Part shown: positions 12,230 through 27,409 of the stretch, in pieces | Layout of the letters: every line of letters begins with the position of its first letter | Position numbering within the stretch: position 1 is the first letter of the stretch | Position numbers and translations under genes: made by a program | Notes under the pieces: generated by a model | The model's database searches: none | What the model saw: the letters and a program-made list of their open reading frames with translations, nothing else | What the model was told of the DNA's origin: nothing | Origin: an uncultured Bacteroidales bacterium | Lineage (GTDB): Bacteria; Bacteroidota; Bacteroidia; Bacteroidales; P3 | Assembly: GCA_900315935.1 (NCBI GenBank) | Contig: ONBB01000001.1 | Span: 1-64,000, forward strand | Direction: 5' to 3' | DNA: 64,000 nucleotides

Positions 12230-12694
12230 ATGGCGTTAATCCTTGGTAAAGAGTACTGTAGAATCGATTCTAACGGTCGTTTCAAGTTCCCAATTGCGTT
12301 GAAGAGGCAGTTGGAGGACGAGGATGGTCGTTTTGTGATTCGGCAGAGCGTCTATGCCGAGTGCCTAGAGCTGTGGACCTATGCCAGTTTCAGGGAGGAA
12401 GTGGAGAAGCTCCAAGGGATGCTCAACCCCTACCGCCGCGAAGACCGCGAACTGCTGCGCAAGCTGACCGAAGGCAATATCATCGAGCTGGACTCGAACG
12501 ACCGCCTTCTGGTACCTGCCGAGCAGAAGCACGTGATAGCGACGGCCAAGGAGGTTGTCCTGCAATCGACCGGCAAGTTCATCGAGCTCTGGGACCGCGC
12601 AGCCTACGACCGTATGAACACCGCCGGCGGTGACTTTGCCCAACGTGCAGAGGCGTTGCTCGGCCTAAGCCAGAGCGATGCCGATGGAGAATAG
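12230..12694 (+). CDS. mraZ: Division/cell wall cluster regulator MraZ
   Basis: This 154-residue protein contains two SpoVT/AbrB-like swapped-hairpin repeats. The first covers residues 5-50 (KEYCRIDSNGRFKFPIALKR) and the second about 80-125 (NIIELDSNDRLLVPAEQK). MraZ forms ring-shaped oligomers that bind repeats upstream of its own gene and regulate the dcw operon. It is the canonical first gene of the cluster and its last 17 bases overlap rsmH. No obvious triple TGGGN-type operator was recognised upstream, which is not unexpected outside the groups where it was defined. Confidence 0.95.
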   Translation: MALILGKEYCRIDSNGRFKFPIALKRQLEDEDGRFVIRQSVYAECLELWTYASFREEVEKLQGMLNPYRREDRELLRKLTEGNIIELDSNDRLLVPAEQKHVIATAKEVVLQSTGKFIELWDRAAYDRMNTAGGDFAQRAEALLGLSQSDADGE

Positions 12695-13619
12695 GACGTA
12701 TGATTACCATGTGCCGGTGATGCTGGCCGAGAGCCTGGAGGCGCTGAATATCAAGCCCGATGGGACTTATGTCGATGTTACATTCGGCGGCGGTGGCCAT
12801 TCGCGCGCCATCTTGGGGCGCCTCGGCCCCGAGGGGCGGCTCTTCGCCTTCGACCAGGACGAGGATGCGCTGCGCAACAGTATTGACGACCAGCGGTTTA
12901 CGCTCATCAGCGAGAACTTCCGCCACCTGCGCAACTTCCTGCGACTTTACGGTGTGCGGCAGGTCGACGGTGTGCTGGCCGACCTGGGGGTGAGCAGCCA
13001 TCAGTTCGACGAGGGCGAGCGCGGTTTTTCCACGCGGTTCGACGGGCCGCTGGACCTGCGTATGGACCGCCGCGGCGAGACGACGGCATCCGACCTGGTG
13101 AACAGCCTCGACGAGGAGGCGCTGGCGCGCCTGCTGAGGCTCTATGGCGAGCTGCCCAACGCGCGGCAGATGGCCAGGGCCATCGTGGAGTTCAGGAGCC
13201 GGAGGCCGGAGGCCGGGGGCATCCGGACCACCGGCGAGCTGAAGGAGGCCGTCTCGCGGCACCTGCCGCGCGGCATGGAGAACAAGTACCTGGCCATGCT
13301 CTTCCAGGCGCTGCGCATCGAGGTGAACGGCGAGCTGGAGGCCCTGAAGGAGATGCTGCAGCAAGCGCAGCAGTTGCTTTCGGTGGAGGGGCGGCTGGTG
13401 GTCATCAGCTACCACTCGCTCGAGGACCGGCTGGTGAAGAATTTCCTGCGCTGCGGCAACTTCGAGGGCGAGGAGGAGAAGGACTTCTACGGCAACCTGC
13501 TGTCGCCGATGGAGCCGGTGGTGCGCAAGGCGCTGCAGGCCAGCGACGAGGAGGTGATGCAGAACAGCCGCGCCCGCAGCGCACGGCTCCGGGTGGGACG
13601 GTTGAGAAACAAGAGCTAA
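12678..13619 (+). CDS. rsmH: 16S rRNA (cytosine-1402-N4)-methyltransferase
   Basis: This 313-residue SAM-dependent enzyme (MraW) methylates C1402 in the ribosomal P site. The start YHVPVMLAESLEAL and the SAM-binding VDVTFGGGGHSRAIL (residues about 32-46) are diagnostic, as are DLGVSSHQFD (about 97-106) and a C-terminal VISYHSLEDRLVKNF motif. The ATG at 12678 is used because it gives the longer conserved N-terminus; the ATG at 12684 is an equally plausible start. Its translation is probably coupled to mraZ by overlap. Confidence 0.96.
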   Translation: MPMENRTYDYHVPVMLAESLEALNIKPDGTYVDVTFGGGGHSRAILGRLGPEGRLFAFDQDEDALRNSIDDQRFTLISENFRHLRNFLRLYGVRQVDGVLADLGVSSHQFDEGERGFSTRFDGPLDLRMDRRGETTASDLVNSLDEEALARLLRLYGELPNARQMARAIVEFRSRRPEAGGIRTTGELKEAVSRHLPRGMENKYLAMLFQALRIEVNGELEALKEMLQQAQQLLSVEGRLVVISYHSLEDRLVKNFLRCGNFEGEEEKDFYGNLLSPMEPVVRKALQASDEEVMQNSRARSARLRVGRLRNKS

Positions 13620-13662
13620 TAATATAAAGGTATAATATAGAATATGGAGATAAAAGACTAGT

Positions 13663-14103
13663 ATGGGAAACAGGTTCAGAGAAAAGGTGGTCGAAGAGGG
13701 CCTCGAGGCCGAGGTGCAGTCGCCGGTGGTGGACGATACCGCGACGGGCGAGGCTGAACCCGAGGCATCGCAGGAGGAATCCAAACCCACCAAAGGCAGC
13801 AAGGCGATGCGCGGTGTGGGCAAGGTGCTGGGCGGCGACCTGTTGGCCGACAACCTGGTGCTGAAGCAGATACCGCTGCTGATGTTATGTCTGTTGTTCC
13901 TGCTGCTCATCGTGGCCAACCGCTACCGTGTGGAAAGCCTCAGCCGCGAGAAGATGGCTGTCATGGAGCGCATCAACGACCTGCGCGAGCACCGCATACA
14001 GATGCAGCAGCAGTACCAGAAGAGTGTCAAGATATCGCAGATAGTCGAGGATCTCAGTCAGACCGGCGTGGGCATCACCTCGGGCCCGCCCTACGAAATA
14101 TAG
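13663..14103 (+). CDS. ftsL: FtsL-like septum protein
   Basis: This 146-residue bitopic membrane protein has a long acidic cytosolic N-terminus (1-60), one membrane segment (about 69-86, IPLLMLCLLFLLLIVAN) and a periplasmic coiled coil (about 90-125). This topology and its place between rsmH and ftsI match FtsL, which bridges FtsQ/DivIB-type proteins to FtsI/FtsW. Sequence conservation in FtsL is very low, so the call depends on position and topology. Confidence 0.85.
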   Translation: MGNRFREKVVEEGLEAEVQSPVVDDTATGEAEPEASQEESKPTKGSKAMRGVGKVLGGDLLADNLVLKQIPLLMLCLLFLLLIVANRYRVESLSREKMAVMERINDLREHRIQMQQQYQKSVKISQIVEDLSQTGVGITSGPPYEI

Positions 14104-14112
14104 AAAAGCGAA

Positions 14113-16377
14113 ATGAGCAACGACGAACATAAGAAAGACAAACGGATGACCCGCGGTGTGGTGGTGCTCTACCTGGTGCTCACCTTGGGCCTGGGCACAG
14201 CCATCGTGGCGAACACCGTCAAGATACAGTTTGTGCAGGGCGACATGTGGCGCGAGCTGGGCAACAAGCGCGAGTCCATCCTGCAGACCAATTCCGCGCG
14301 CCGAGGCAACATCTACTCGAGCGACGGCAAGATACTGGCCACCACGGTTACGGAGTGCTACCTCTACCTGGACTTGCTCGACACCATAGTGCTCGACAAC
14401 AAGGGCAAGCCCCGCCTCAACAAGAAGGGCGAGCCCTTGGAGAGCGGCATCCCCGACTCGAGTTTCCACCGCTACCTGGACACCGTCAGCCTCCTGCTGC
14501 ACGAGGCCGTGCCGATGTACCCTGCCGACCACTACCGCAACCGCATCGCCCTCGAGCGCGCCAAGGAAAATCCCAGCCGCTGCTTCGCAGTGCTGCGCTC
14601 GCCCAAGGGTTATCCCCTGTCCATCCCTTACTCCACATGGCTCACCATCAAGCGCCTGCCCGGCTGGGGGCGGGGTGTAGTGGCCAAGGTTGACGGGCAA
14701 AGCGTGCAGCGCCAGGTGCGAGCCCATATTTATGGCAACCTGGCCGGCAACACCATCGGGTTCGAGAACAACAAGCATAACTTCACGGGTCTCGAAGGAT
14801 ACTACGACAGCATCCTCCGCGGCCAGGACGGCATCGCCCTCTGCCGTCGCCTCACCAAAGGTATCTGGCTGCCCGACGAGCCGCGCGAGCGCAAGGAAAT
14901 TCCCCAGCGCACCGATGGCGACAAGGTGGATACCATCGTGGTGCAGAACAAGGTGGACGGCCGCGACATCGTCTCCACCATCGACACCCGCTACCAGGAC
15001 ATCGCCGAGAGCTCGCTCCGCAAGGCCCTGCGCCGGTACGGCGGCACGGCCGGCTGTGCCATACTGATGGAGATGGAGACCGGCTATGTGCTGGCCTGTG
15101 CCAACCTGGCTGTCGACACCCTGCGGCACGACTACCGCGAGGTGCGCGACCGCAATGTGGCCGTCAGCGACGTATATGAACCCGGCTCCACATTCAAGAC
15201 TGTCATCCTCACCGCCATGCTCGAAGACTCGCAGGTGAAGATTGACACCTCCCTGCGGCTGCCGGCACGCTACAAGAACTTCGGCGGCGTGAACGGCGAA
15301 ATCAAGGATGACCATGGCGACTGGGACTCGCTGAGCCTGAAGCGCGTCATCGAGCAGTCGTCCAATGTGGGTATGTGCGACCTCGGGTGGCAGCTCTATT
15401 CCACCCGGCGCGACACACTGCGCCACCTGGTGGAGGGCATGTTCCCCTACGCCAACATCAACCCCGACGTCAAGGCCAGAGAATACCGGTCGTACATCAA
15501 CGACCTGCATCAGTCAAAGCGCGACTTCCTCAACTTCTGCTACGGCTATTCAACCCGCGTGTCGCCCCTGCAGCTTATCACCTTCTACAACGCCCTTGGG
15601 GCCGGTGGCCGCATGGTGAAGCCCCTCTTCTGCCGCGCAGTGGTCGACGAGAATGGCCGCCAGCGCGAGGTGAAGCCGGTGGTGCTCAACCCCAGCATCT
15701 GCAGTCGCAGCACCGCCAGGCTGATGAGCGAGTTGCTGGAAAATGTGGTCGAGAACGGCACCGGCAACAATATCAAGAACAACACCTACGGCATTGCCGG
15801 CAAGACCGGCACGTCGGTGTTCAGCTATTCCAACCGCAAGCGCTACAATGCTTCGTTCGCAGGCTTCTTCCCTTCGGAGAATCCGCGCTACACCTGCCTG
15901 GTGGTGGTGGAGGACATCCCCTACTTTGGCCGTCAGGCTGCCGAAGTGTTCAAGTCCATCGCCGACTGTGTGGTGGCCATCGACAAGCGGTTGAGCGACG
16001 GCGGCGTGAAGTCGGTGTGGCCCACTCTCGAAGAGGATAGCGCCAAAGCCCTGCAGCGTCCCACCGTGGCTAAGGGCGACCAGACCTACCTGGCCGATAT
16101 CTACAAACTGCTCCGCGTTCCCTACCGCACGGCCGACCCCGACAGCCGCTGGGTCTCCTACCAGCCCGCCACCGACAGCACCCAGGCCACCTATATCCCC
16201 TACGCCCCTGTCGAGGGCAAGGTGCCCAACTGCTACGGCATGACCGCCAAGGATGCCGTCGAGCTGCTGCAGTCGATGGGCTACCGCGCCCGGGTACGTG
16301 GCTACGGCCGTGTGTTCAACCAATCGGTCAAAGGACAGGCCGCCCAGGGGACCACCGTCGTGCTCACCATGAAATAA
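14113..16377 (+). CDS. ftsI: Division-specific penicillin-binding protein with PASTA domain
   Basis: This 754-residue class B PBP is the septal peptidoglycan transpeptidase. A single N-terminal membrane segment (about 15-35) leads to the dimerisation domain. The transpeptidase motifs are SxxK (Ser359-Thr-Phe-Lys362), SxN (Ser416-Ser417-Asn418, the Asn closing the motif) and KTG (Lys564). Residues from about 695 to the end (KVPNCYGMTAKDAVELLQ) form one PASTA domain, usual in Bacteroidota FtsI. It works with FtsW, encoded downstream. It is 9 bases from ftsL and 11 from murE. Confidence 0.96.
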   Translation: MSNDEHKKDKRMTRGVVVLYLVLTLGLGTAIVANTVKIQFVQGDMWRELGNKRESILQTNSARRGNIYSSDGKILATTVTECYLYLDLLDTIVLDNKGKPRLNKKGEPLESGIPDSSFHRYLDTVSLLLHEAVPMYPADHYRNRIALERAKENPSRCFAVLRSPKGYPLSIPYSTWLTIKRLPGWGRGVVAKVDGQSVQRQVRAHIYGNLAGNTIGFENNKHNFTGLEGYYDSILRGQDGIALCRRLTKGIWLPDEPRERKEIPQRTDGDKVDTIVVQNKVDGRDIVSTIDTRYQDIAESSLRKALRRYGGTAGCAILMEMETGYVLACANLAVDTLRHDYREVRDRNVAVSDVYEPGSTFKTVILTAMLEDSQVKIDTSLRLPARYKNFGGVNGEIKDDHGDWDSLSLKRVIEQSSNVGMCDLGWQLYSTRRDTLRHLVEGMFPYANINPDVKAREYRSYINDLHQSKRDFLNFCYGYSTRVSPLQLITFYNALGAGGRMVKPLFCRAVVDENGRQREVKPVVLNPSICSRSTARLMSELLENVVENGTGNNIKNNTYGIAGKTGTSVFSYSNRKRYNASFAGFFPSENPRYTCLVVVEDIPYFGRQAAEVFKSIADCVVAIDKRLSDGGVKSVWPTLEEDSAKALQRPTVAKGDQTYLADIYKLLRVPYRTADPDSRWVSYQPATDSTQATYIPYAPVEGKVPNCYGMTAKDAVELLQSMGYRARVRGYGRVFNQSVKGQAAQGTTVVLTMK

Positions 16378-16388
16378 GAAAGAACCGC

Positions 16389-17837
16389 ATGAAACTGAAA
16401 GATATAATAAAAGGCATAGATGCCCAGGTGCAAGGCAGCGCCGAGGTGGAGGTGAAGGACCTCCAGTTCGACTCGCGCCGCGTGTCGCAGGGGACCCTCT
16501 TTGTGGCCCAGCCAGGCACCCAGGTGGACGGGCACGACTACATCGCCAAGGCCGTCGAGGCCGGTGCCGTGGCCGTCATTTGCCAGCACCTGCCCAAGGA
16601 TGCGCCCGAAGCCACCTATGTGGTGGTGCCTGACAGCAGCGAGGCCCTCGGCTTGGCTGCCGCCAACTTCTATGGCCACCCTTCGCGCAGGCTGAAACTG
16701 GTCGGCATCACCGGCACCAACGGCAAGACCACCACCGTTACCCTCCTGCACCGCCTCTTCCGCCATCTGGGTCGCCATGCCGGCCTCATCTCCACCATCG
16801 TGAACAAGATTGACGAGGAGGAGCTGCCCGCCGGCCACACCACGCCCGATGCGCTGGAACTCAACCAGCTGCTCTGCCGCATGGTGGAGGCTGGATGCGA
16901 ATACTGTTTCATGGAGGTGAGCAGCCACGCCGTGGTGCAGCGCCGCATTGCGGGCCTTGAGTTCGCCGGCGCCCTCTTCAGCAACATCACCCACGACCAC
17001 CTCGATTTCCACAAGACCATGCAGGCATACATCGCCGCCAAGAAGGGTTTCTTCGATACCCTTCCCGCCTCGGCGTGGGCGCTGGTCAATGTGGACGACA
17101 AGAACGGCCGCGTCATGGTGCAGAACACGCGGGCCGCGGTGAAGACCTACGCCCTGCGCCAGGCTGCCGACTTCCATGGGAAGATAATAGAGGAAGGTTT
17201 CGACGGCATGCTGCTCGGCATCGGCAACGATGAGGTGTGGTGCCGCCTGGTGGGCCGCTTCAATGCCTACAACCTGCTGGCTATCTATGGCGCCGCCGTG
17301 CTGAGCGGAGTGCCCCAGGCCGAGGCGTTGCGTCAGCTGTCGCTCCTGGAGCCTGCCCCTGGGCGCTTCCAGTACGTCAGCGGCCGCGGCATCACCGCCA
17401 TTGTGGACTACGCCCACACGCCCGACGCCCTTCAGAATGTGCTCGACACCATACGCGACCTGCGCCGCCCCACGCAGCAGATTATCACCGTGGTGGGCTG
17501 CGGTGGCGACCGCGACAAGACCAAGCGTCCCGAGATGGCACGGATTGCCAAGCGGTTGAGCGACAAGCTGGTGCTTACCAGCGACAACCCCCGCACCGAG
17601 CAGCCCGACGCCATCCTGGACGACATGGAGGCGGGCCTCGATGCCGAGCAGCTCAGCCATACCGTCCGCATCACCGACCGCCGCCAGGCCATCCGCACCG
17701 CCTGCCTCATGGCGCGCGAGGGCGACATCATCCTCGTGGCCGGCAAGGGGCACGAGAAGTACCAGGAGGTGAACGGCGTGCGCTCGCATTTCGATGATGT
17801 GGAGGAGCTGGAAAAGGAGTTGGGAGTTAATAGTTAA
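16389..17837 (+). CDS. murE: UDP-MurNAc-tripeptide synthetase (meso-DAP adding)
   Basis: This 482-residue ATP-dependent cytosolic ligase adds the third stem-peptide residue. The Mur ligase P-loop GITGTNGKTTT lies at about 108-118. The specificity motif DNPR is at 399-402 (SDNPRTEQP), which in characterised MurE enzymes selects meso-diaminopimelate over lysine. The length is normal. The last codons overlap the start of a short tandem repeat (17825-17866), so the extreme C-terminus (GVNS) may be repeat-derived. Confidence 0.96.
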   Translation: MKLKDIIKGIDAQVQGSAEVEVKDLQFDSRRVSQGTLFVAQPGTQVDGHDYIAKAVEAGAVAVICQHLPKDAPEATYVVVPDSSEALGLAAANFYGHPSRRLKLVGITGTNGKTTTVTLLHRLFRHLGRHAGLISTIVNKIDEEELPAGHTTPDALELNQLLCRMVEAGCEYCFMEVSSHAVVQRRIAGLEFAGALFSNITHDHLDFHKTMQAYIAAKKGFFDTLPASAWALVNVDDKNGRVMVQNTRAAVKTYALRQAADFHGKIIEEGFDGMLLGIGNDEVWCRLVGRFNAYNLLAIYGAAVLSGVPQAEALRQLSLLEPAPGRFQYVSGRGITAIVDYAHTPDALQNVLDTIRDLRRPTQQIITVVGCGGDRDKTKRPEMARIAKRLSDKLVLTSDNPRTEQPDAILDDMEAGLDAEQLSHTVRITDRRQAIRTACLMAREGDIILVAGKGHEKYQEVNGVRSHFDDVEELEKELGVNS

Positions 17838-17866
17838 GAATTAAGAGTTAAGAATTAAGAGTTAAG
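17825..17866 (+). repeat. 14-bp tandem repeat between murE and mraY
   Basis: The unit GTTAAGAATTAAGA occurs twice and begins a third time, flanked by related AGTTAATAGTTAAG. It covers the murE stop codon and nearly all the 33-base spacer. It looks like a simple slippage-prone spacer, not a protein-binding array. Confidence 0.7.
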
Positions 17867-17870
17867 TATT

Positions 17871-19049
17871 ATGCTATATTATCTGTTTGATTGGCTCGAC
17901 AAAGCATTCGACTTCCCCGGCGCGGGTGTGTTCCAGTACATCTCGTTCCGTGCGGCTGCCAGCATGGTTACATCGCTGCTGGTCATGCTGCTGTTGGGCA
18001 AGCCCTTCATCCGTTTCATGAAGAACCGGCTGGGCATGACCGACGACGTGCGCACCGAGCTGGGCCTCGAAGGCGCCGCCCTCAAGTCGCAGACCCCCAC
18101 CATGGGCGGCCTGCTCATCCTCTTCGCCATCATTGTCCCCACGCTCCTCTTCGCCAAGCTGGACAACATCTATGTGCAGGTGATGCTCGGCACCACGGTG
18201 TGGATGGGGTTGGTGGGATTCCTCGACGACTACCTGAAGAAGACCCGCGGCAAGGCCGGCCTGCCGGGCAAGTACAAGGTGCTGGCGCAGGTGCTGTTGG
18301 GCCTTGTGGTGGGCTTGCTCATCATCCACCACCCCGGCATCAGCGGCTCCACCACCACCACCATTCCCTTTGTGAAGAACAACGAGTTCGACTACGCCTG
18401 GCTTGTAACCTGGATGGGTCCCTGGGCGCAGGATCTGGTGTGGGTGGTCTACGTGCTGGTCATCGTCCTTATCGTTACCGCTGTGAGCAACGCCTCGAAC
18501 CTCACCGACGGCATCGACGGCATCGCCACCGGCGTGGCGGCTGTCAACGGCGGCGCCTTGGCGCTGCTGGCGTGGGTGTCGGGCAACGTGGTGATGGCTT
18601 CCTACCTCAACACCATGTACCTGCCCAACATCGGCGAGCTGGCCGTGTTCAGCACCACCTTTGTGGGTGCCACGCTGGGCTTCCTGTGGTACAACTCGCA
18701 TCCGGCCGAGATATTCATGGGCGACACCGGCTCGCTGGCCATCGGCAGCATCATCGCCGTCTTCGCCGTGCTTATCAAGAAGGAGCTGCTGCTGCCTGTG
18801 CTGTGCGGCATCTATGTGGTGGAGAACCTCTCGGTCATCATCCAGACCTCGTTCTGCAAGTCGTACCGCCGCCGCAACAACCTGCCGCCCGACCAAGTGG
18901 TGCCGGTGGAGAAGCGCCCCTTCCGCATGACGCCCCTCCACCACCACTACCAGAAGAAGGGCATGGCCGAGGAGAAGGTGGTGATGCGTTTCATCATCAT
19001 CGCCATCCTGTTGGCCATCTTCACGCTGTCGACCCTCAAACTGCGTTAG
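17871..19049 (+). CDS. mraY: Phospho-MurNAc-pentapeptide transferase
   Basis: This 392-residue polytopic membrane enzyme makes lipid I from UDP-MurNAc-pentapeptide and undecaprenyl phosphate. Key sequences are GFLDDYLKKTRGKAGLPGKYK (Asp-Asp pair near 116-117), NLTDGIDGIATG (near 210) and IFMGDTGSLAIG (near 283). The histidine-rich MTPLHHHYQKKG loop near 350 is the MraY tunicamycin/UDP-site signature. It is slightly shorter than many Bacteroidota orthologues but keeps all catalytic motifs. Confidence 0.97.
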   Translation: MLYYLFDWLDKAFDFPGAGVFQYISFRAAASMVTSLLVMLLLGKPFIRFMKNRLGMTDDVRTELGLEGAALKSQTPTMGGLLILFAIIVPTLLFAKLDNIYVQVMLGTTVWMGLVGFLDDYLKKTRGKAGLPGKYKVLAQVLLGLVVGLLIIHHPGISGSTTTTIPFVKNNEFDYAWLVTWMGPWAQDLVWVVYVLVIVLIVTAVSNASNLTDGIDGIATGVAAVNGGALALLAWVSGNVVMASYLNTMYLPNIGELAVFSTTFVGATLGFLWYNSHPAEIFMGDTGSLAIGSIIAVFAVLIKKELLLPVLCGIYVVENLSVIIQTSFCKSYRRRNNLPPDQVVPVEKRPFRMTPLHHHYQKKGMAEEKVVMRFIIIAILLAIFTLSTLKLR

Positions 19050-19080
19050 AAATATCATATCAACCTATCAACAGATTATC

Positions 19081-19620
19081 ATGACAATAGACACCCTGGC
19101 CACCCAAGGCCGCGACAAAATACACACTGGCCTTTCCGGCATCGACGCCCACCGTCTGAAGGTGATTCGCAATGCCTCCCTGCGGGCCTGCTTCAACCGT
19201 CTGGAGGACACGCGCCACCGCCTCGAGTTTGTGGCCCGCATCCGTGGGCGCGAGTATGTGTGCGATGCCGCCTCGCGTTCGGTCAATGCCACGTGGTATG
19301 CCCTCGAAAGCACGCAGGGCGGCATCGTGTGGATTGCCGACGCGCCGCAGGAGGAGATGGACTACAGCCGCCTGGTGCCGCCGGCCCTGCGCAAGGTGCG
19401 CATGCTGCTCATCGTCGGCGGCGACAGCGAGGCCATGCACAGCGCCTTCGACGGCGTGGTGCCTTCGATAGTGCCGTGCGACACGATGGCCGAGGCCCTC
19501 CACCATGCTTACAACTATGAGGCCGACGATGTCAAGGTGCTCTACTCGCCCGCCTGCCCCTCCGAGCAGTCGGCCGACGAGCGCGCCGCCAGCTTCTGCC
19601 GCGAAGTCAATGATTTATAA
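19081..19620 (+). CDS. MurD-derived protein: C-terminal domain only, diverged
   Basis: This 179-residue protein occupies the slot normally held by murD (about 445 residues). Residues 40 to the end align by eye with MurD domain 3. TRHRLEFVA corresponds to VEHRLE, SVNATWYALEST to NVNSTWYALES, and LYSPACPS to the LLSPACAS motif. The N-terminal UDP-binding domain and the central ATPase domain with its P-loop are absent, and only 31 bases separate it from mraY, so they were deleted and not frameshifted. The DSKATN substrate loop reads DAASRS here, and the FKNFEQRG region after SPAC is shortened and changed. D-glutamate ligase activity is therefore not expected. It is an intact frame in an intact operon, so it may be retained for another role or be a decaying remnant. 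Confidence 0.8.
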   Translation: MTIDTLATQGRDKIHTGLSGIDAHRLKVIRNASLRACFNRLEDTRHRLEFVARIRGREYVCDAASRSVNATWYALESTQGGIVWIADAPQEEMDYSRLVPPALRKVRMLLIVGGDSEAMHSAFDGVVPSIVPCDTMAEALHHAYNYEADDVKVLYSPACPSEQSADERAASFCREVNDL

Positions 19621-19623
19621 CCT

Positions 19624-20856
19624 ATGAAACTGACCAACATATTCCGTGGCGACAAGACCCTCTGGGTGCTTTTCCTCCTCCTCGGCATCGTCTCGCTGGT
19701 GGAGGTCTACAGCGCCATCGGTCTGGAAGCCTCCAAGTTCGCCTCCCGAACGCCCACCGAGTTCTTCTTCCGTCATCTGCTGATTGTGGCGGGTACGTGG
19801 GGAGTGGTCCTCTTCCTGTCGCGCGTCAACTACCGCTACTTCTCGCGCTTTGCCGTGCTGGCGCTGTGGGTGTCGGTGGTGCTGCTGGTAGTGCTGCTGG
19901 CACTCAAGCTGAGCCATAGCGATATAGTTGCAAAATCGGGCGGCCGCTGGCTGCCGGTGCCCGTCATAGGCCAGTTCCAGCCCTCCGAGGTGGCCAAGGT
20001 GGCGCTCATCCTCTTCATGGCCCGCCTCATGGCCATCAGGAAGGAGGGCTTGGACGAGGTGGGAACCTTCATCCAGATGCTCCTGCCGATTGTGCTGGTG
20101 GTGGTGTTTGTGCTGCCGACCAACTTCTCCACCGCGGCACTTATCGCCATCTCCTGCTACCTGATGCTTTACTTCGGCGGCGTCAACCGCACCTGGTGGT
20201 GGCGCCTCCTGCTGATAGGTCTGGTGGCCGTCGTGGCATTCCTGGCCATCAGCTACTACCGCTACGAGCATTCGCTCCTGGCCGACAGCACCCCCAAGAC
20301 CGAACAGCAGCTGCTCGAGCGTTCCGAGACCTGGGGCCACCGTGTCCACTCGTGGCTCAATCCCGACCCCGAGGCGCTCACGCAGGAGAACATGGCCCGC
20401 ATGGCCATCGCCCGTGGCGGCGTAATCGGCGTGGGACCGGGCAACACCATCCATGCCCGCCTGATGACCCAGGCGCACAGCGACTTCATCTACGCCATCA
20501 TCCTCGAGGAGCTGGGCCTGGTGGGCGGTATCAGCGTATTCCTGCTCTACAGCTTCTTCTTCTTCCGCTGCATACGCATCGCCTGGCGCTGCCGGGGACG
20601 CTTCGGCGCGCTCACGGTCATCGGCCTCGGCTCCATGATATACATCCAGGCCCTGGCCAACATGGCGGTCGCCGTCGGCGTGCTGCCCGTTACCGGCCAG
20701 ACGCTGCCCTTCATCTCCTACGGCGGCACGGCCTACCTCTTCCTCGGCTGCGGCCTGGGCATCATCCAGTCCATCGCCGCCGATACCGATTCCGAAAAGG
20801 AACCCCTCCCCGAACCCTCGCCCGAACCCCAAGTCGACCCCCCTATCATTCCATAA
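19624..20856 (+). CDS. ftsW: Septal peptidoglycan glycosyltransferase FtsW
   Basis: This 410-residue SEDS-family membrane protein has about ten transmembrane helices and polymerises lipid II together with FtsI. Family sequences are GGRWLPVPVIGQFQPSEVAK (about 107-127), the long extracellular loop with HRVHSWLNPDPEALT, and QAHSDFIYAIILEELGLVGG (about 281-300), and ISYGGTAYLFLG near the end. The start is 3 bases after the MurD remnant. The stop codon lies inside a dispersed repeat (20851-20920), so the Pro-rich tail may be partly repeat-shaped. Confidence 0.96.
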   Translation: MKLTNIFRGDKTLWVLFLLLGIVSLVEVYSAIGLEASKFASRTPTEFFFRHLLIVAGTWGVVLFLSRVNYRYFSRFAVLALWVSVVLLVVLLALKLSHSDIVAKSGGRWLPVPVIGQFQPSEVAKVALILFMARLMAIRKEGLDEVGTFIQMLLPIVLVVVFVLPTNFSTAALIAISCYLMLYFGGVNRTWWWRLLLIGLVAVVAFLAISYYRYEHSLLADSTPKTEQQLLERSETWGHRVHSWLNPDPEALTQENMARMAIARGGVIGVGPGNTIHARLMTQAHSDFIYAIILEELGLVGGISVFLLYSFFFFRCIRIAWRCRGRFGALTVIGLGSMIYIQALANMAVAVGVLPVTGQTLPFISYGGTAYLFLGCGLGIIQSIAADTDSEKEPLPEPSPEPQVDPPIIP

Positions 20857-20977: not shown

Positions 20978-22084
20978 ATGAAAGTCATCATCAGCGGAGG
21001 AGGCAGCGGCGGACACATCTTTCCCGCCATCGCCATCGCCAACGCCCTCAAGGCACGCCACCCCGAGGCGGACATCCTCTTCGTCGGTGCCGAAGGCAAG
21101 ATGGAGATGGAGAAGGTGCCCGCGGCGGGCTACCGGATTGTGGGCCTGCCCATCGCCGGCCTGCAGCGCAAGCTCACCCCCTCCAACATCGTCCGCAACC
21201 TGCAGCTGCCTTTCAAGATGATGAAAAGCCGCCGCATGGTGAAGCGAACCCTGGCCGACTTCCATCCCGACGTGGTGGTCGGTGTGGGTGGTTTCGCCAG
21301 TCAGCCCACCCTCAATGCCGCCGCCTCGCTCGGCATACCCACCCTCATCCAGGAGCAGAACTCCTACGCCGGCCTCACCAACAAGACCCTCGCCCGCAGA
21401 GCCCGCACCATCTGCGTGGCCTATGAGGGCATGGAACGCTTCTTCCCCAAGGACAAAATCGTCTTCACCGGCAACCCCGTCCGCGACATGATAGAGAACA
21501 ACTGCGCCACCGCTGCCGAGGGTCGCGCCCACTTCGGCCTCGAGCCCGAGGGACGCGTGCTGCTCTCCGTCGGCGGAAGCCTCGGCGCCCGCTCCATCAA
21601 CCAGATGCTGCTCGGACACCTGCACTTCTTCCGCGAGAACAATATTCAGGTCCTGTGGCAGACCGGCCGCTGGATGTACGACGAGGCCGTCGCCGCGGTG
21701 GACAAGGCCGGTGTGGGCCAGTGGGTCAAGGTGTACCAGTTCATCTCCCGCATGGACCTCGCCTATGCCGCCGCCGACATCATCGTGTCGCGTGCCGGCG
21801 CCATCGCCATCTCGGAGCTCTGCCTTGTCGGCAAGCCCGTGGTGCTCATCCCCTCGCCCAACGTGGCCGAGGACCACCAGACCAAGAACGCCCTCGCCCT
21901 CGTCGACCGCGGCGCCGCTGTCATGGTGCGCGACGCCGACTGCCACACCCAGGGCCTGCGTACCGTCAAGGAACTCTTCGACTCGCCGCTGCAGACCCGC
22001 GAGATGTGCGCCGCTATTGCACGTATGGCCGTCCGCGGATCGGCCGACAAAATTGTTGACCAAATAGACAAACTGCTGCCATGA
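20978..22084 (+). CDS. murG: UDP-GlcNAc:lipid I N-acetylglucosaminyltransferase
   Basis: This 368-residue GT28 enzyme converts lipid I to lipid II on the cytosolic face of the membrane. The N-terminal GGGSGGHIFPAIAIANAL (about 5-22), GVGGFASQPTLNAA (about 101) and the C-terminal donor-binding region with VSRAGAIAISELCLVGKPVVLIPSPNVAEDHQ (in segments) are diagnostic. The length is normal. It overlaps murC by 4 bases. Confidence 0.97.
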   Translation: MKVIISGGGSGGHIFPAIAIANALKARHPEADILFVGAEGKMEMEKVPAAGYRIVGLPIAGLQRKLTPSNIVRNLQLPFKMMKSRRMVKRTLADFHPDVVVGVGGFASQPTLNAAASLGIPTLIQEQNSYAGLTNKTLARRARTICVAYEGMERFFPKDKIVFTGNPVRDMIENNCATAAEGRAHFGLEPEGRVLLSVGGSLGARSINQMLLGHLHFFRENNIQVLWQTGRWMYDEAVAAVDKAGVGQWVKVYQFISRMDLAYAAADIIVSRAGAIAISELCLVGKPVVLIPSPNVAEDHQTKNALALVDRGAAVMVRDADCHTQGLRTVKELFDSPLQTREMCAAIARMAVRGSADKIVDQIDKLLP

Positions 22085-23445
22085 ACTACTACTTTCTCGG
22101 CATAGGAGGCATCGGCATGAGCGCCCTCGCGCGCTTCTTCCACCGCAGGGGCGACCGCGTGTGTGGCTACGACCGCACGCCCTCGCCGCTCACCGACCAG
22201 CTGCAGGCCGAAGGAATCGCCGTCCACTTCGACGACAACCCCGACCTGCAACCCTCCGATATCGATTTGGTTGTCTACACCCCCGCCGTCCCCACCGACA
22301 CGCTCGAGTTCCAGGCCCTCGTGCAGCGCGGCGTGCCTATGCAGAAGCGCTCCCAGGTGCTGGGCGAGCTCACCCGTGGCAAACGTTGCATTGCCGTGGC
22401 CGGCTCACACGGCAAGACCTCCACCTCGGCCATGATTGCCCACCTGCTCGCCAAAGCCCCCTGCGGATGCAGCGCCTTCCTCGGCGGCATAAGCAAGAAC
22501 TTCGGCTCCAACCTCCACGTCGACCCGCAGAGCGACCTCGTTGTGGTCGAGGCCGATGAGTACGACCGTTCCTTCCTCCAGCTCCACCCCCACATGGCCG
22601 TCATCACCGCCACCGACCCCGACCACCTCGACATCTACGGCGACCACCGCCACATGCTCGAGGCATACCTCCAGTTCGCCAGGCAGGTAGACCTCGAGGG
22701 CCGCCTCCTCATCAAGGACGGCTCCTTCCTCACTGCCGATGGCGAATGCCTCCTCGACCAGGCCCTCGCGCACCTCACCTATACCGCACGCGGCGTCGAG
22801 GCCGACTACTACGCCATCAATGTCCGCACCTATGGCGGCAACCTCTTCTTCGACCTCCGCACCCCCGACGGCGTGCTCTACGACCTCGAGTTGCAGGGTA
22901 CCGCCCTCTTCAATGTCGAAAACGCCGTCGCCGCCTCGGCCATCGCCCTCGCCTGCGGCCTCGACCAGTACCAGCTGCGCCACGGCCTCAAGACCTTCCA
23001 GGGGGTGCAGCGCCGCTTCGACTACCGCATCCGCGAGAAGAACCTCGTCTATATCGACGACTATGCCCACCACCCGCAGGAGATACAGTCCACCATCGAG
23101 TCGGTCCGCTACCTCTACCCGGGCAAGCGTGTGGTCGGCATCTTCCAGCCTCACCTCTACAGCCGCACGCGCGACCTGGCCGATGGCTTCGCCCTGGTGC
23201 TGCAGACCCTCGACGAGGTCATCATGCTCCCTATCTACCCCGCCCGCGAAAAGCCTATCCTCGGCGTTACCTCTTCGATGGTGCTCCGCAAGATGGACTC
23301 CATGTCCAAATACCTCTGCACTCCCGATCAGGCACTCGAACTCGTCCCAGCCCTCTGCCCCGATGTGGTGCTCACCCTCGGTGCCGGCGACATTGACCGC
23401 CTGGTGCCCCGTCTGGAAGCCGTTTTAAAAGAGACTATGCTATGA
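22081..23445 (+). CDS. murC: UDP-N-acetylmuramate-L-alanine ligase
   Basis: This 454-residue cytosolic Mur ligase adds L-Ala to UDP-MurNAc. The N-terminal GIGGIGMSALARFF binds the UDP part. The P-loop AGSHGKTSTSAMIAH lies at about 117-131, and DEYDRSF, DYAHHPQEI and FQPHLYSRT are the ligase motifs expected for MurC. MurC is present and complete, in contrast with the MurD position upstream. Confidence 0.97.
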   Translation: MNYYFLGIGGIGMSALARFFHRRGDRVCGYDRTPSPLTDQLQAEGIAVHFDDNPDLQPSDIDLVVYTPAVPTDTLEFQALVQRGVPMQKRSQVLGELTRGKRCIAVAGSHGKTSTSAMIAHLLAKAPCGCSAFLGGISKNFGSNLHVDPQSDLVVVEADEYDRSFLQLHPHMAVITATDPDHLDIYGDHRHMLEAYLQFARQVDLEGRLLIKDGSFLTADGECLLDQALAHLTYTARGVEADYYAINVRTYGGNLFFDLRTPDGVLYDLELQGTALFNVENAVAASAIALACGLDQYQLRHGLKTFQGVQRRFDYRIREKNLVYIDDYAHHPQEIQSTIESVRYLYPGKRVVGIFQPHLYSRTRDLADGFALVLQTLDEVIMLPIYPAREKPILGVTSSMVLRKMDSMSKYLCTPDQALELVPALCPDVVLTLGAGDIDRLVPRLEAVLKETML

Positions 23446-24197
23446 AAATGAAACGCTCTGTCAAAATATCGCTCATTGTATTGGGTGCCGCGCTGCTGGC
23501 CGTGCTGGTAGTGGTGCTCAATGTGTCGCGTTCCAACTCGCAGGTGCGTGGCCTCGAAGCCGACATCCGCTACGGCTCCACCCCCATGCTGGTCTCCGGG
23601 CAGACGGTGGTCGACAGTGTGGTTGCCGCACTCCCCACCCTGATGCAGCAGCAGGTGAAGGCTGTCGATTGCGAAGCCGTGGCCGAGGCGGCGCGCCGCG
23701 TGCCGTTCCTCACCAATGTCAGCGCCTCGGTCAGCGTCAGCGGCCGTGTGGTGGTGCGCGCCGACCAGCGCCGACCCATCGCTCGCCTTTTCCATGGCGA
23801 CCGCGAGCGCTACCTCGACCGCGAGGGAGCCGTCTTCCCCGTCTCACGCGTGGGTAACTGCAACGTGCTGGTGGCCGGTGGCGACTTCTCCGCACCCCTG
23901 CGCCCCGACAGCCTCGACGCGCAGCTCACCGCCCTCTGGCAGGTGGCCTCCTACCTCGACTCTGAAAGCCGCTACTCCAAACTCATCGACCAGATATTCG
24001 TCGAGCGCGACGGCGACATTATGATGGTGCCCAAGGTGGGCGACCACGTGGTGGAACTGGGCGATGCCAACGACCTCGACGGCAAGTTCGCCAACCTTGT
24101 GGCTTTCTACCGCAAGGGCATGCCCCGCGCCGGCTGGGACACCTACTCCAAAATCAGCCTCAAATTCAAAGGACAAGTAGTTTGCACAAAGAAATAA
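23442..24197 (+). CDS. ftsQ: Cell division protein FtsQ
   Basis: This 251-residue bitopic protein has a short basic N-terminus, one membrane helix (about 8-27) and a periplasmic POTRA-like domain (VSASVSVSGRVVVRADQRRP region) followed by a beta domain (EGAVFPVS, VAGGDF). This is the Bacteroidota FtsQ/DivIB layout. It overlaps murC by 4 bases and precedes ftsA, its standard place. Confidence 0.9.
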   Translation: MKMKRSVKISLIVLGAALLAVLVVVLNVSRSNSQVRGLEADIRYGSTPMLVSGQTVVDSVVAALPTLMQQQVKAVDCEAVAEAARRVPFLTNVSASVSVSGRVVVRADQRRPIARLFHGDRERYLDREGAVFPVSRVGNCNVLVAGGDFSAPLRPDSLDAQLTALWQVASYLDSESRYSKLIDQIFVERDGDIMMVPKVGDHVVELGDANDLDGKFANLVAFYRKGMPRAGWDTYSKISLKFKGQVVCTKK

Positions 24198-24217
24198 ATC
24201 AAAAATACAGACACATT

Positions 24218-25585
24218 ATGGAACATGAACTTATTGTAGGCCTCGACATCGGAACCACCAAGATTGCCTGCTTTGTGGGTATGCGGGGCGAAACGGGCAA
24301 GGTGAAAATCCTTGGTTTTGGCAAGACCGACTCGAAGGGTGTTGAGCACGGTGTGGTGAAAAATGTGGCCGAAACGGCCGAGTCCATCAAGCGTGCCGTC
24401 AACGATGCCGCCGACCAGGCCAATGTAGACATCGACGAGGTGTGGGTAGGTATCGCCGGTCAGCACATCAAGTCGCGCCCCTCGCAGGGCAGCGTGATGA
24501 TCCCTGCCGAACATCGTCTTATCACACAGGAGGATGTGGACCGTCTCATTTCGGAACAATACAATACCTTGCTCGAACCCGGCGAGGAGATTATCCACGT
24601 GTTTCCGCAACAGTTCATCGTCGACCGCGAGGAACTCAGCCGCGAGGTATCGCCCGTCGGCGTGGCCGGCAAGGTGCTGCAGGCCAACTTCCACATGGTT
24701 ACAGCCAACAAGCAGCATCTCGAGTTCATCAAGTATGCCGTCCAGGATGCCGGCCTCACTATCAAGGGTGTCGTGCTCGAACCCGTGGCTTCGGCCAAGG
24801 CGGTGCTCGACGAGGGCGACCGCGATGCAGGCGTGGCCATGGTCGATATCGGCGGTGGCACTACGGATATTGCCATCTTCCACGACGACATCATACGCCA
24901 CACTGCAGTCCTGCCCCTGGCTGGCAATGCCATCACCAACGACATTCGCGAGGGTTGCAACATCATGAAGCGCCAGGCCGAGAGCCTAAAGGTGAAGTTC
25001 GGCTCCTGTCTTGTGCAGGCTGTATCGGAAAATGACATCATCTCCATCCCTGGCATCCGCAGTCAGAATGCGCGTGAGATATATATGAAGACCCTTGCCA
25101 GCATCATCAATGCCCGCACAAAGATGATTATGGAGCAGATAGACTATGAAATCAAGCTCTCGGGTTGCCACAAGAAGCTCATCGCCGGCATCACCCTTAC
25201 CGGCGGCGGTGCCCAGCTGAAGAATATCAAGGAGCTCTGCGAGCTCATCACCGCGACTGATACCCGTATAGGTATCCCCACCGAACACCTTGACAAGGAC
25301 AGTGTCTCGTATACAGAGCTTGCCCACCCGATGTATGCCACCGGCATCGGCCTCGTCATCTGCGGCCTCGAGAAGACGGAGCAGGAGGGGGCCAGGGAGT
25401 CCAAGACCGCCAAGGGAAAGACCGACCTCTTCAAGGATATGGAGGAGACGCCCGCCCTGGAGCCTGCCCCTGAACCCAAGCCAAAACAGCCAGAAAAGAA
25501 GGCTAAACCAGGCAAGGGACCCAAGGATTTCTGGGGGGCTATCGAGAAGAAACTGGGTGAAATCTTCGACGAAAATATAGAGTAG
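24218..25585 (+). CDS. ftsA: Cell division actin-like ATPase FtsA
   Basis: This 455-residue protein tethers FtsZ filaments to the membrane. The start is placed at ATG 24218 (MEHELIVGLDIGTTK), because upstream in-frame codons are not conserved-looking and would overlap ftsQ's spacer. The phosphate loops are LDIGTTKIACFVG (about 7-19) and MVDIGGGTTDIAIF (near 208). The C-terminus has a Pro/Lys linker and the amphipathic membrane-targeting helix FWGAIEKKLGEIF. Confidence 0.95.
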   Translation: MEHELIVGLDIGTTKIACFVGMRGETGKVKILGFGKTDSKGVEHGVVKNVAETAESIKRAVNDAADQANVDIDEVWVGIAGQHIKSRPSQGSVMIPAEHRLITQEDVDRLISEQYNTLLEPGEEIIHVFPQQFIVDREELSREVSPVGVAGKVLQANFHMVTANKQHLEFIKYAVQDAGLTIKGVVLEPVASAKAVLDEGDRDAGVAMVDIGGGTTDIAIFHDDIIRHTAVLPLAGNAITNDIREGCNIMKRQAESLKVKFGSCLVQAVSENDIISIPGIRSQNAREIYMKTLASIINARTKMIMEQIDYEIKLSGCHKKLIAGITLTGGGAQLKNIKELCELITATDTRIGIPTEHLDKDSVSYTELAHPMYATGIGLVICGLEKTEQEGARESKTAKGKTDLFKDMEETPALEPAPEPKPKQPEKKAKPGKGPKDFWGAIEKKLGEIFDENIE

Positions 25586-25624
25586 TTAATTAAGTTGTTG
25601 AAAACTAATTGGTAATATGACTCG

Positions 25625-25651
25625 TTGAGCAGGAATAAGTTCGTATCTTTA
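25625..25651 (+). promoter_or_regulatory. Possible internal promoter before ftsZ
   Basis: TATCTTTA (25644-25651) resembles the -7 box, with TTG at 25625-25627, a spacing shorter than usual. The 135-base ftsA-ftsZ gap, by far the longest between ftsW and the end of the cluster apart from the repeat before murG, makes a separate ftsZ promoter plausible. Confidence 0.4.
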
Positions 25652-25720
25652 CAATGTCTTTTTGAGTGGTAATATTCGAATAACCAATTAGTATTCAATC
25701 AGATAGAAATACACAAGCAC

Positions 25721-27409
25721 ATGGAAAACAACATAAATCCGGCCAATCAACCCACGCAGCAGGCCACATTCTTTGCATTTGACTCGCCCAAGGGGCAGTC
25801 GTCCTACATCAAAGTCATCGGTGTAGGCGGTGGCGGCGGCAATGCCGTCAACCACATGTACAAGCAGGGTATCGAGGGTGTCGACTTCATTGTCTGCAAC
25901 ACCGATATGAAAGCCCTCAACGCCAGTCCCGTGCCCAATAAGATACCGCTGGGCGACCTCGGCCTGGGTGCCGGCAACAAGCCCGAGCGCGCCAGACTGG
26001 CCGCCGAGGCCAAGCGCGATGATATCCGCGAGGCTATCAGCCACAATACCCAGATGCTCTTTATCACCGCCGGTATGGGCGGTGGCACCGGCACCGGTGC
26101 AGCACCGGTTATTGCCGAAATCGCCAAGAGCATAGAGCTCGACAACGATGAGAACAAGCGTATACTTGTGGTGGCCATTGTTACCCGTCCTTTCGGTTTC
26201 GAGGGACGCCGTCGCCGCGAGCAGGCCGAAGAGGGTATCGAAGAGCTGCGCAAGCATGTGGACTCCATTATCGTTATCAATAATGACAAGCTGCTGACCG
26301 AAAAGAATATGCGCATCAGCGAGTCGTTCGGCAAAGCCGACGATGTGCTGCTCACCGCTGCCAAAGGCATCGCCGAAATCATCACCGAAAACGCCTATGT
26401 CAACCGCGACTTCCAAGACGTCAATACCGTCATGGAACATTCCGGCACGGCACTCATGGGCACCGGCAGCGGCGCAGGCGAGAACCGCGCCCAGGAGGCT
26501 ATCGAGGCCGCCACGACATCGGTCCTGCTGGACGACAGCGACATCCGCGGAGCCAAGAATGTGCTTCTCTACTTCACCTATTCCTCGCAGCGCGAGATGA
26601 CCATGGAGGAGATGGAGGTGATTACGGACTATGTGCTCGACAAGACCGACGGCACGGCCGACATCATTTGGGGCGCCGGTCCCGACGAGAGTCTCGGAGA
26701 CGAACTCAAGGTTATCCTCATCGCCACGGGTTTCGAAAAGTCGAATCTGGTGTCCGAGGAGCCGAAGCGTTATGAGCTGCCCAAGGACGAGCCCAAGGAC
26801 GAAGTCAAGCCCCAGCCGGCTCCTATGGTCGAGGATCCCTTTGCCATCGAGCTCATCCACCGCGCCCAGGAGGCCGTGAAGGCCGAAGCCCCTGCCCAGC
26901 CTGTCAATGAGGCCGAGGCCGACGTGGCCGCGCATGTTAGCCGCGTGTTTGTGCTCGACGATGACCTCATCGAGTTTGAGCAGCCCGTCCAGCCTGTGAA
27001 CCTCAAGCCCGAGGTGAAGGTGGACTCCATGGTGGACGACATCCACATTGTGGCCGCTCCCGAGGCCGAAGCCATGGTAGCCGAGGCTCCTGCCCCGCGT
27101 CCTGCTGTGGCCGAGACGCCCCGTCCGGCTCCCACGCCCATCAGCGAGACACCGGCCCGCAGCGCATTCGAGAGCATGAACGATGTGAAGCTTGCCAACG
27201 ACCGTGCCAAGCGCATCGCCTATATCAACAGCCTCCTCCACGGCAATCCCAGCGGTGTCGATGCGGTGCACGCCATGTCCACTCAGGAGATTACCGGCGC
27301 GGAGCTCTACGAGGGCAACGCCTCGGGTGTGCGCGAAGCTGCCTCCGTCGTCATCCGCAAGGACGGCACGATGGGTCGCAACGGATGGCTCGACAACCAA
27401 CCCGATTGA
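25721..27409 (+). CDS. ftsZ: Cell division GTPase FtsZ with long C-terminal linker
   Basis: This 562-residue tubulin-like GTPase forms the Z ring. GVGGGGGNAVNHMY (about 38-51) and the tubulin signature GGGTGTGAAPVIAEIAK (about 120-136) bind GTP. The GTPase core ends near residue 345 (VILIATGFEKSNLV). About 200 residues of Pro/Ala/Glu/Val-rich linker follow, then a short terminal peptide GWLDNQPD, which sits where the conserved FtsA-binding peptide is found in other Bacteroidota. The linker is noticeably long for the group. Confidence 0.97.
   Translation: MENNINPANQPTQQATFFAFDSPKGQSSYIKVIGVGGGGGNAVNHMYKQGIEGVDFIVCNTDMKALNASPVPNKIPLGDLGLGAGNKPERARLAAEAKRDDIREAISHNTQMLFITAGMGGGTGTGAAPVIAEIAKSIELDNDENKRILVVAIVTRPFGFEGRRRREQAEEGIEELRKHVDSIIVINNDKLLTEKNMRISESFGKADDVLLTAAKGIAEIITENAYVNRDFQDVNTVMEHSGTALMGTGSGAGENRAQEAIEAATTSVLLDDSDIRGAKNVLLYFTYSSQREMTMEEMEVITDYVLDKTDGTADIIWGAGPDESLGDELKVILIATGFEKSNLVSEEPKRYELPKDEPKDEVKPQPAPMVEDPFAIELIHRAQEAVKAEAPAQPVNEAEADVAAHVSRVFVLDDDLIEFEQPVQPVNLKPEVKVDSMVDDIHIVAAPEAEAMVAEAPAPRPAVAETPRPAPTPISETPARSAFESMNDVKLANDRAKRIAYINSLLHGNPSGVDAVHAMSTQEITGAELYEGNASGVREAASVVIRKDGTMGRNGWLDNQPD

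Follow-up and report, generated by a model that had tools for sequence, protein, structure and literature searches.

Between mraY and ftsW, in the slot of the dcw cluster that belongs to murD, the genome of an uncultured Bacteroidales bacterium carries an open reading frame of 179 codons that is homologous to the end (the last third) of MurD only. This raises the questions of whether its product, here called MurD-C, can still act as a ligase, how the D-Glu step of wall synthesis is carried out in this lineage, and why the end of a ligase gene is kept on its own. The window analysed here is a stretch of 64,000 nucleotides (contig ONBB01000001.1, assembly GCA_900315935.1), and it was compared with further genomes of the genus and of the order.

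The gene in the murD slot

The dcw genes of the window follow the order mraZ-rsmH-ftsL-ftsI-murE-mraY-[MurD-C]-ftsW-murG-murC-ftsQ-ftsA-ftsZ, with a gap of 31 nt separating mraY from MurD-C (Table 1). Of the ten neighbours tested, seven pass their NCBIfam cut-offs (rsmH, murE, mraY, murG, murC, ftsA and ftsZ) and three match without reaching them (mraZ, ftsI and ftsW). The names ftsL and ftsQ are assigned by position only. Upstream of the cluster, at 9734-10375, the window also contains a 324-base unit that is repeated twice at 93%.

Table 1. Features of the dcw cluster in the window.
Feature	Position	Strand	Remarks
mraZ, rsmH, ftsL (by place), ftsI, murE	12230..17837	+	upstream remainder of the dcw cluster
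mraY	17871..19049	+	upstream neighbour; TIGR00445 over cut-off
A/T-rich spacer (31 nt) and MurD-C start codon (ATG ACA ATA)	19050..19083	+	
MurD-C (179 aa)	19081..19620	+	end of MurD domain 2 and domain 3; catalytic loops lost
ftsW	19624..20856	+	downstream neighbour; TIGR02614 227.8 bits, below cut-off 337.5
murG, murC, ftsQ (by place), ftsA, ftsZ	20978..27409	+	downstream remainder of the dcw cluster

The NCBIfam model for murD (TIGR01087) matches residues 31-161 of MurD-C at model positions 291-421 with 66.2 bits (E 2.9e-18), below its cut-off of 211.95, and the Pfam Mur_ligase_C match is sub-threshold (E 0.0021). A profile of the MurD-C family aligns with residues 267-445 of the solved MurD 3lk7 over the whole fragment length (E 3.2e-32), which establishes homology to the domain 3 end of MurD from one end of the fragment to the other, although some 40-45 residues, starting at the Met, precede domain 3 and derive from the end of domain 2 if the boundary lies where we take it to be. 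As the frame begins within the end of domain 2, it is devoid of the P-loop or central ATPase domain. The motifs HRLE, VNATWYALES and SPAC are present, DSKATN has become DAASRS, and the loop following SPAC is shortened. The first-pass annotation had reported the 179-residue frame, the 31-base spacer, these kept and altered motifs and the loss of the P-loop domain, all of which is borne out; its statement that the match covers domain 3 only has to be widened by the piece of domain 2.

The Glu/ATP residues of domain 3 (K319, T321, K348, S415 and F422 in E. coli) have been lost from the window's copy as well. With neither a P-loop domain nor the residues for Glu and phosphate, the MurD-C of the window cannot, judging from its sequence, be a ligase. 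Across 84 short forms, about half of which come from the window's own family, K319 is kept in 31%, T321 in 35%, K348 in 19%, S415 in 42% and F422 in 39%, and young short forms (for instance those of G333 and G041) still carry these residues. D328, W338, W350, K371, V372 and F441 are kept at 0.95 or more over 21 clades of short forms.

Thirty-six of the 37 genus genomes carry MurD-C, always free of internal stops and 41-88% identical to the copy in the window; the single genome that lacks it (G026) is 81% complete. This recurrence makes chance or an assembly error very unlikely. Its median dN/dS is 0.189, compared with 0.123 for mraY and 0.263 for ftsW (27 moderately divergent pairs of the 398 computed), and the median pN/pS over all 398 pairs is 0.440 for MurD-C, 0.249 for mraY and 0.446 for ftsW. 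MurD-C is under purifying selection, which supports a retained non-catalytic role. The earlier suggestion that the fragment has gained a regulatory or structural role is strengthened to that extent, and the molecular role would be that of a scaffold or a regulator.

A second MurD and the D-Glu step

A search of the whole host genome for a full MurD found one on another contig, C16, with a score of 250.1 bits and thus over the TIGR01087 cut-off. Directly upstream of it lies a MurL homologue (NF041275, 229.9 bits, E 4e-68), which carries the GGGKDS motif and does not reach the cut-off of 700 set for this model, which is named for Xanthomonadales. According to a review of this pathway (PMC8788868), MurD2 of Xanthomonas adds L-Glu, which MurL then inverts, and the L-Glu specificity of MurD2 is reported to be set by Glu and Arg at the places of E. 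coli D182 and K348. The MurD on C16 has the same pair of residues, and the pair recurs in 70 MurD2 loci from 59 genomes, with E at the D182 place in 70/70 and R at the K348 place in 69/70, the remaining one being a gap.

None of the 37 genus genomes gives a MurI match. In the host genome (96.6% complete), the best match to the D-amino-acid transaminase model TIGR01121 (E 1.5e-9) also stays short of the cut-off, so that neither a glutamate racemase nor a D-amino-acid transaminase over cut-off was found there. MurL matches were found in 33 of the 37 genus genomes, the one in G019 being a short piece. The other four (G012, G017, G018 and G035) lack a complete MurD2 as well as MurL, which makes a missing contig the likely reason. 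Because the MurD on C16 has the MurD2 residues, adjoins a MurL homologue and occurs in a genome with no MurI match, the D-Glu step itself probably differs in the host lineage, the activities of MurL and MurD2 being those predicted from their sequences. The first-pass annotation had posed an alternative between a MurD elsewhere that performs D-Glu ligation and a wall synthesis that differs in this lineage. Each half is partly right: a full MurD does exist elsewhere but carries the residues of the L-Glu enzyme rather than those for plain D-Glu ligation, and the difference in wall synthesis would lie in the D-Glu step.

In the order as sampled, MurL matches are present in 124 of 393 genomes (in G088 as a weak piece) and MurI exceeds its cut-off in 241 of 393. 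Some MurI match exists in 27 of the 124 MurL-positive genomes, none better than 6e-22 among the matches listed, so that none of these passes the cut-off. A D-amino-acid transaminase as the source of D-Glu was over cut-off in none of 80 MurL-positive genomes. Weaker matches (E < 1e-15) occur in 21/40 genomes with full-length murD versus 4/40 with the short form, with G277 in addition at 2.1e-15, and these may be other class IV aminotransferases.

At some loci MurL and MurD2 are found in one open frame of about 885-950 codons (L070, L075, L090, L096 and L104, from genomes G020, G034 and G005), and long open frames also occur in G033, G115, G143, G219, G309 and G376 as judged by their length; the one-frame loci are probable fusions. 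Seven-base tandem repeats are present both before mraY in the window (17824-17871) and within murL and murD2 frames (L039 6896-9088), where they add repetitive peptide stretches to cell-wall enzymes.

Where MurL-positive genomes have a full-length murD in the dcw cluster, this gene retains the alignment columns at which MurI-type genes do not vary, with means of 0.968 in domains 1-2 and 0.946 in domain 3. As the catalytic columns are kept, the full-length protein probably remains an enzyme there, and the swap to MurD2 would not be total. The sole column under 0.5 is R301, which is replaced by K; residue 301 is Arg in 37/37 MurI-type genes and Lys in most MurL-positive full-length genes and can serve as a marker.

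Recurrent shortening and the internal methionine

The domain-3 profile was searched in 123 of the 124 MurL-positive genomes, the window's genome being counted as the other. Of these 124 genomes, 47 (that of the window among them) have a short dcw murD and 67 a full-length one; in four (G088, G131, G143 and G416) a contig end interrupts the gene, and six (G056, G113, G165, G196, G217 and G272) give no strong match. In the MurL-negative sample, which consists of G051 and 79 genomes drawn evenly, 75 of 80 are full-length (one of them, in G289, is cut at 391 codons), one is short (G051), three lie at a contig end and one is absent. The difference between 47/67 and 1/75 short to full-length has a Fisher p of 8e-12, a value that ignores kinship. 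The six MurL-positive genomes without a strong match, which include both sampled members of family f78, suggest that MurD-C may be dispensable; for the dcw slot of this family, the regions fetched proved not to be dcw.

G051 has no MurL, MurI or full MurD match. Two adjoining open reading frames in its dcw cluster (L399 14441-17055) both match ftsZ, and murC was not found there. Two further loci, L285 and L286, labelled as Alphaproteobacteria and Bacteroidales, have the same dcw gene sizes and a murG frame of 610 codons, and one is perhaps mislabelled or a contaminant contig.

Both states of murD coexist within five genera (g6, g118, g137, g51 and g36) and between the genera of five further families (f4, f13, f27, f74 and f94). 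By taxonomy it follows that murD was shortened at least ten separate times, provided that loss is one-way. On a FastTree phylogeny of FtsW and MraY from 193 genomes, with five contig-cut short forms left unlabelled, the fewest changes number 18 and the all-short clades 20. The MurI-bearing genomes fall on one side of this tree in 37 of 39 cases, and G051 lies on that side too; the other side makes up 74% of the tree length, partly from dense sampling of the genus. In G042, which bears MurI, an apparently short MurD is explained by a contig end that cuts the gene. Remnants of domains 1-2 were sought upstream of the short forms and none is claimed, as the best tblastn matches map to the first 77 residues of the open frame in G421, whose first 66 codons lie over the end of mraY, read in a different frame.

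The short forms share roughly one cut point. Of 44 that are uncut (one, from G376, belonging to the genus), 25 are exactly 182 residues long from the first ATG and 43 lie within 176-188; the last has 199 residues and a further ATG at 182. In 63 of 81 short rows the alignment reaches profile position 1, and every one of the 63 has an ATG at this position; the remaining 18 align only from further in, and their Met is equivalent by distance from the end only. The start codon of MurD-C in the window corresponds to a Met that is internal in the full-length murD of relatives, where an ATG stands at this place in 65/67 MurL-positive and 39/42 MurL-negative dcw genes as well as in 38/41 genes of a mixed Bacteroidota set. 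As this ATG is the first one of the short open frame, the old murD start has not been kept. A Streptococcus MurD (3lk7) also has a Met here, which means that the residue predates its use as a start. Since most MurI-type MurDs have it as well, its role may be structural, with the start function a matter of convenience.

In the full-length genes of MurL-positive genomes, this internal ATG has the signature of a start site. Around it, from codon -20 to +14, synonymous codon choice in 65 such genes favours low GC and high A, most strongly at codons 0 to +9. Over codons -20 to +9 the shift appears in all 30 MurL-positive families, with means of -0.189 GC and +0.189 A per codon, whereas 330 other ATGs of the same genes are flat (+0.030 GC, -0.014 A) and MurD2 genes show little shift at the aligned place (-0.034). 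The 37 MurI-type genes, from 28 families, have a weaker shift of -0.066 GC and +0.054 A, in the same direction in 20 and 21 families, respectively. The mRNA between -36 and +36 is more open than the synonymous expectation by 3.97 ± 0.39 kcal in MurL-positive genes, compared with +0.69 ± 0.67 in MurI-type genes. GC content does not explain the shift, as GC-matched means keep the difference (-0.196, n=49, versus -0.050, n=25). At codons +1 to +9, the shift at the internal ATG (-0.284) exceeds that at the ftsW starts of the same genomes (-0.183); at ftsW starts of MurI-type genomes there is hardly any (-0.037), so this signature is no universal mark of starts.

The own start of murD behaves in the opposite way. 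Here MurL-positive genes have a smaller codon shift than MurI-type genes do (-0.028 versus -0.202, p 0.002; seven of the 65 MurL-positive genes without a recognised motif left out), while at the internal ATG it is stronger (-0.290 versus -0.119, p 0.002), and the internal shift exceeds that of the own start in 24/29 MurL-positive families versus 9/28 MurI-type families. Non-ATG own starts number 11/58 and 3/37, respectively; mRNA folding around this start shows no difference between the two groups (p 0.34). The N-terminus of the short product (residues 267-280) has an entropy of 0.69 in MurL-positive full-length genes versus 1.28 in MurI-type genes, and the rest of domain 3 is not more conserved (1.13 versus 1.03). 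No excess of the promoter consensus box TAnnTTTG was found within murD, with 1/67 among genes without the MurI-type label and 0/37 among MurI-type genes. The start-site evidence is statistical, and the z and Fisher values given here ignore kinship, which family means mend only partly. Taken together, codon use, mRNA structure, the weakened own start and the conserved N-terminus suggest that MurL-positive full-length murD genes probably make two products. The first-pass annotation was correct in its observation and partly supported in its interpretation; it foresaw neither the recurrence across the order, the shared internal Met and its start-like character, nor the loss of the old murD start.

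Origin and role of MurD-C

The explanation that we favour, and consider fairly probable as a whole, begins with the MurL/MurD2 background. On this background, the dcw murD would have become a two-product gene in which an internal start at the conserved Met, 182 residues from the end, yields the short C-terminal protein. Many lineages, that of the host included, would later have lost the upstream part, so that MurD-C persisted as a gene in its own right on which purifying selection acts; free MurD-C genes are observed, and the events may have followed in this order. MurD-C would then be a non-catalytic adaptor in a Mur/MraY/FtsW assembly, where it would preserve an old protein contact of MurD for which MurD2 provides no substitute. 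This scaffold role is our best guess and the weakest step of the explanation. A broader version, which is tentative and somewhat less likely than not, is that the C-terminal domain of MurD in Bacteroidota has long had a second, structural function, which was uncoupled after the takeover by MurD2-MurL and freed some 18 or more times.

The main rival to the scaffold role places MurD-C as a direct partner of MurD2 or MurL that hands over or regulates UDP-MurNAc-L-Ala-Glu, with no scaffold in the dcw assembly. This is unlikely, even though domain 3 is the Glu-side domain of MurD and the distribution of MurL is closely matched by that of the start signature and of the short form, as MurD2 covers the whole MurD model including domain 3 and many short forms have lost the residues that bind Glu. 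The position of the gene argues against it as well: in the 44 short-form loci inspected, MurD-C adjoins mraY or ftsW and never murL-murD2, and in one further genome, that of Candidatus Colimorpha pelethequi, it lies between ftsL and ftsI (L395 2253-2792), with mraY and ftsW abutting each other across the empty slot. In a second, rather improbable rival, the internal Met would be structural only: the cuts would end there because no later ATG precedes domain 3, and until the deletion the gene would make nothing but the long protein. The ATG of MurL-negative genes and the Met of 3lk7 agree with this; the synonymous and mRNA-structure signature in 30/30 MurL-positive families, with other ATGs and MurD2 flat, and the weakened own-start codons of the same genes do not.

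A purely cis function, in which the protein is passive and the sequence serves translational coupling or an ftsW promoter, has little to commend it. The ftsW gene does begin 3 nt past the MurD-C stop in the window, and the upstream windows are A/T-rich, but selection acts on the amino acids, the promoter box is not in excess, and the survival of MurD-C between ftsL and ftsI in Colimorpha, away from ftsW, speaks for a protein tied to the cluster. That MurD-C is a functionless relic in slow decay is highly doubtful: the lost catalytic residues and the six MurL-positive genomes without it, among them the two of f78, would fit, yet the intact copies and the dN/dS of 0.19 contradict decay for the genus, and fold positions such as D328, W338 and F441 are kept over 21 clades. 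An assembly or binning artefact can practically be dismissed, as the arrangement with flanking mraY and ftsW recurs under selection in dozens of independent assemblies, even though the close named relatives are all MAGs and full-length murD exists at this locus in other genera and families.

Whether Mur enzymes form a scaffolded complex with non-catalytic roles is a long-standing question, and it becomes directly testable if a domain of one Mur ligase has repeatedly been parted from its catalysis in evolution and retained. Should the broader version be true, MurD-C would belong to the Mur/divisome assembly as a specialised non-catalytic component, and the repeated, independent cuts would in effect be nature's own experiment on which portion of a Mur ligase the cell requires beyond catalysis. 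The findings also suggest that a gene annotated as full-length murD may in addition, or mainly, yield a short protein. A search of largely open-access literature met nothing to the point on truncated murD, MurL in Bacteroidales, absence of MurI, internal initiation in MurD or Mur interactions.

Among known systems, the MurD2-MurL pathway of Xanthomonas oryzae (XOO_1320/XOO_1319) resembles the host lineage in having MurL beside a MurD with the E/R pair and no MurI match. Two reviews (PMC8788868, PMC5808125) name Gamma- and Alphaproteobacteria and actinobacteria for the pathway, and PMC5808125 adds a fungus, cyanobacteria and an amoeba as carriers of distant orthologues. The present case differs in that the hosts are Bacteroidales, where the route would extend to about a third of the sampled genomes (124/393), a few of them with a single MurL-MurD2 frame, and in that no genome of the order reaches the cut-off of the Xanthomonadales model.

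With the MurD ligase itself, MurD-C shares homology across the full fragment and the same dcw slot; it differs in having neither domain 1 nor the P-loop domain and, in the window copy, neither phosphate nor Glu residues. MurT, a Mur-ligase-like protein of lipid II amidation, gives a weak profile match in its solved structure (E 0.0026). However, MurT keeps the Mur ligase core and pairs with GatD, whereas MurD-C has no such core. The closest parallel in gene structure may be the nested in-frame genes such as Cas11 inside large Cas genes or the short forms of IF2, in which an internal start in the same frame likewise gives a C-terminal protein. We know of no such gene for a Mur ligase, and MurD-C differs from these examples in that the outer gene, murD, has been lost many times while the inner one has been kept.
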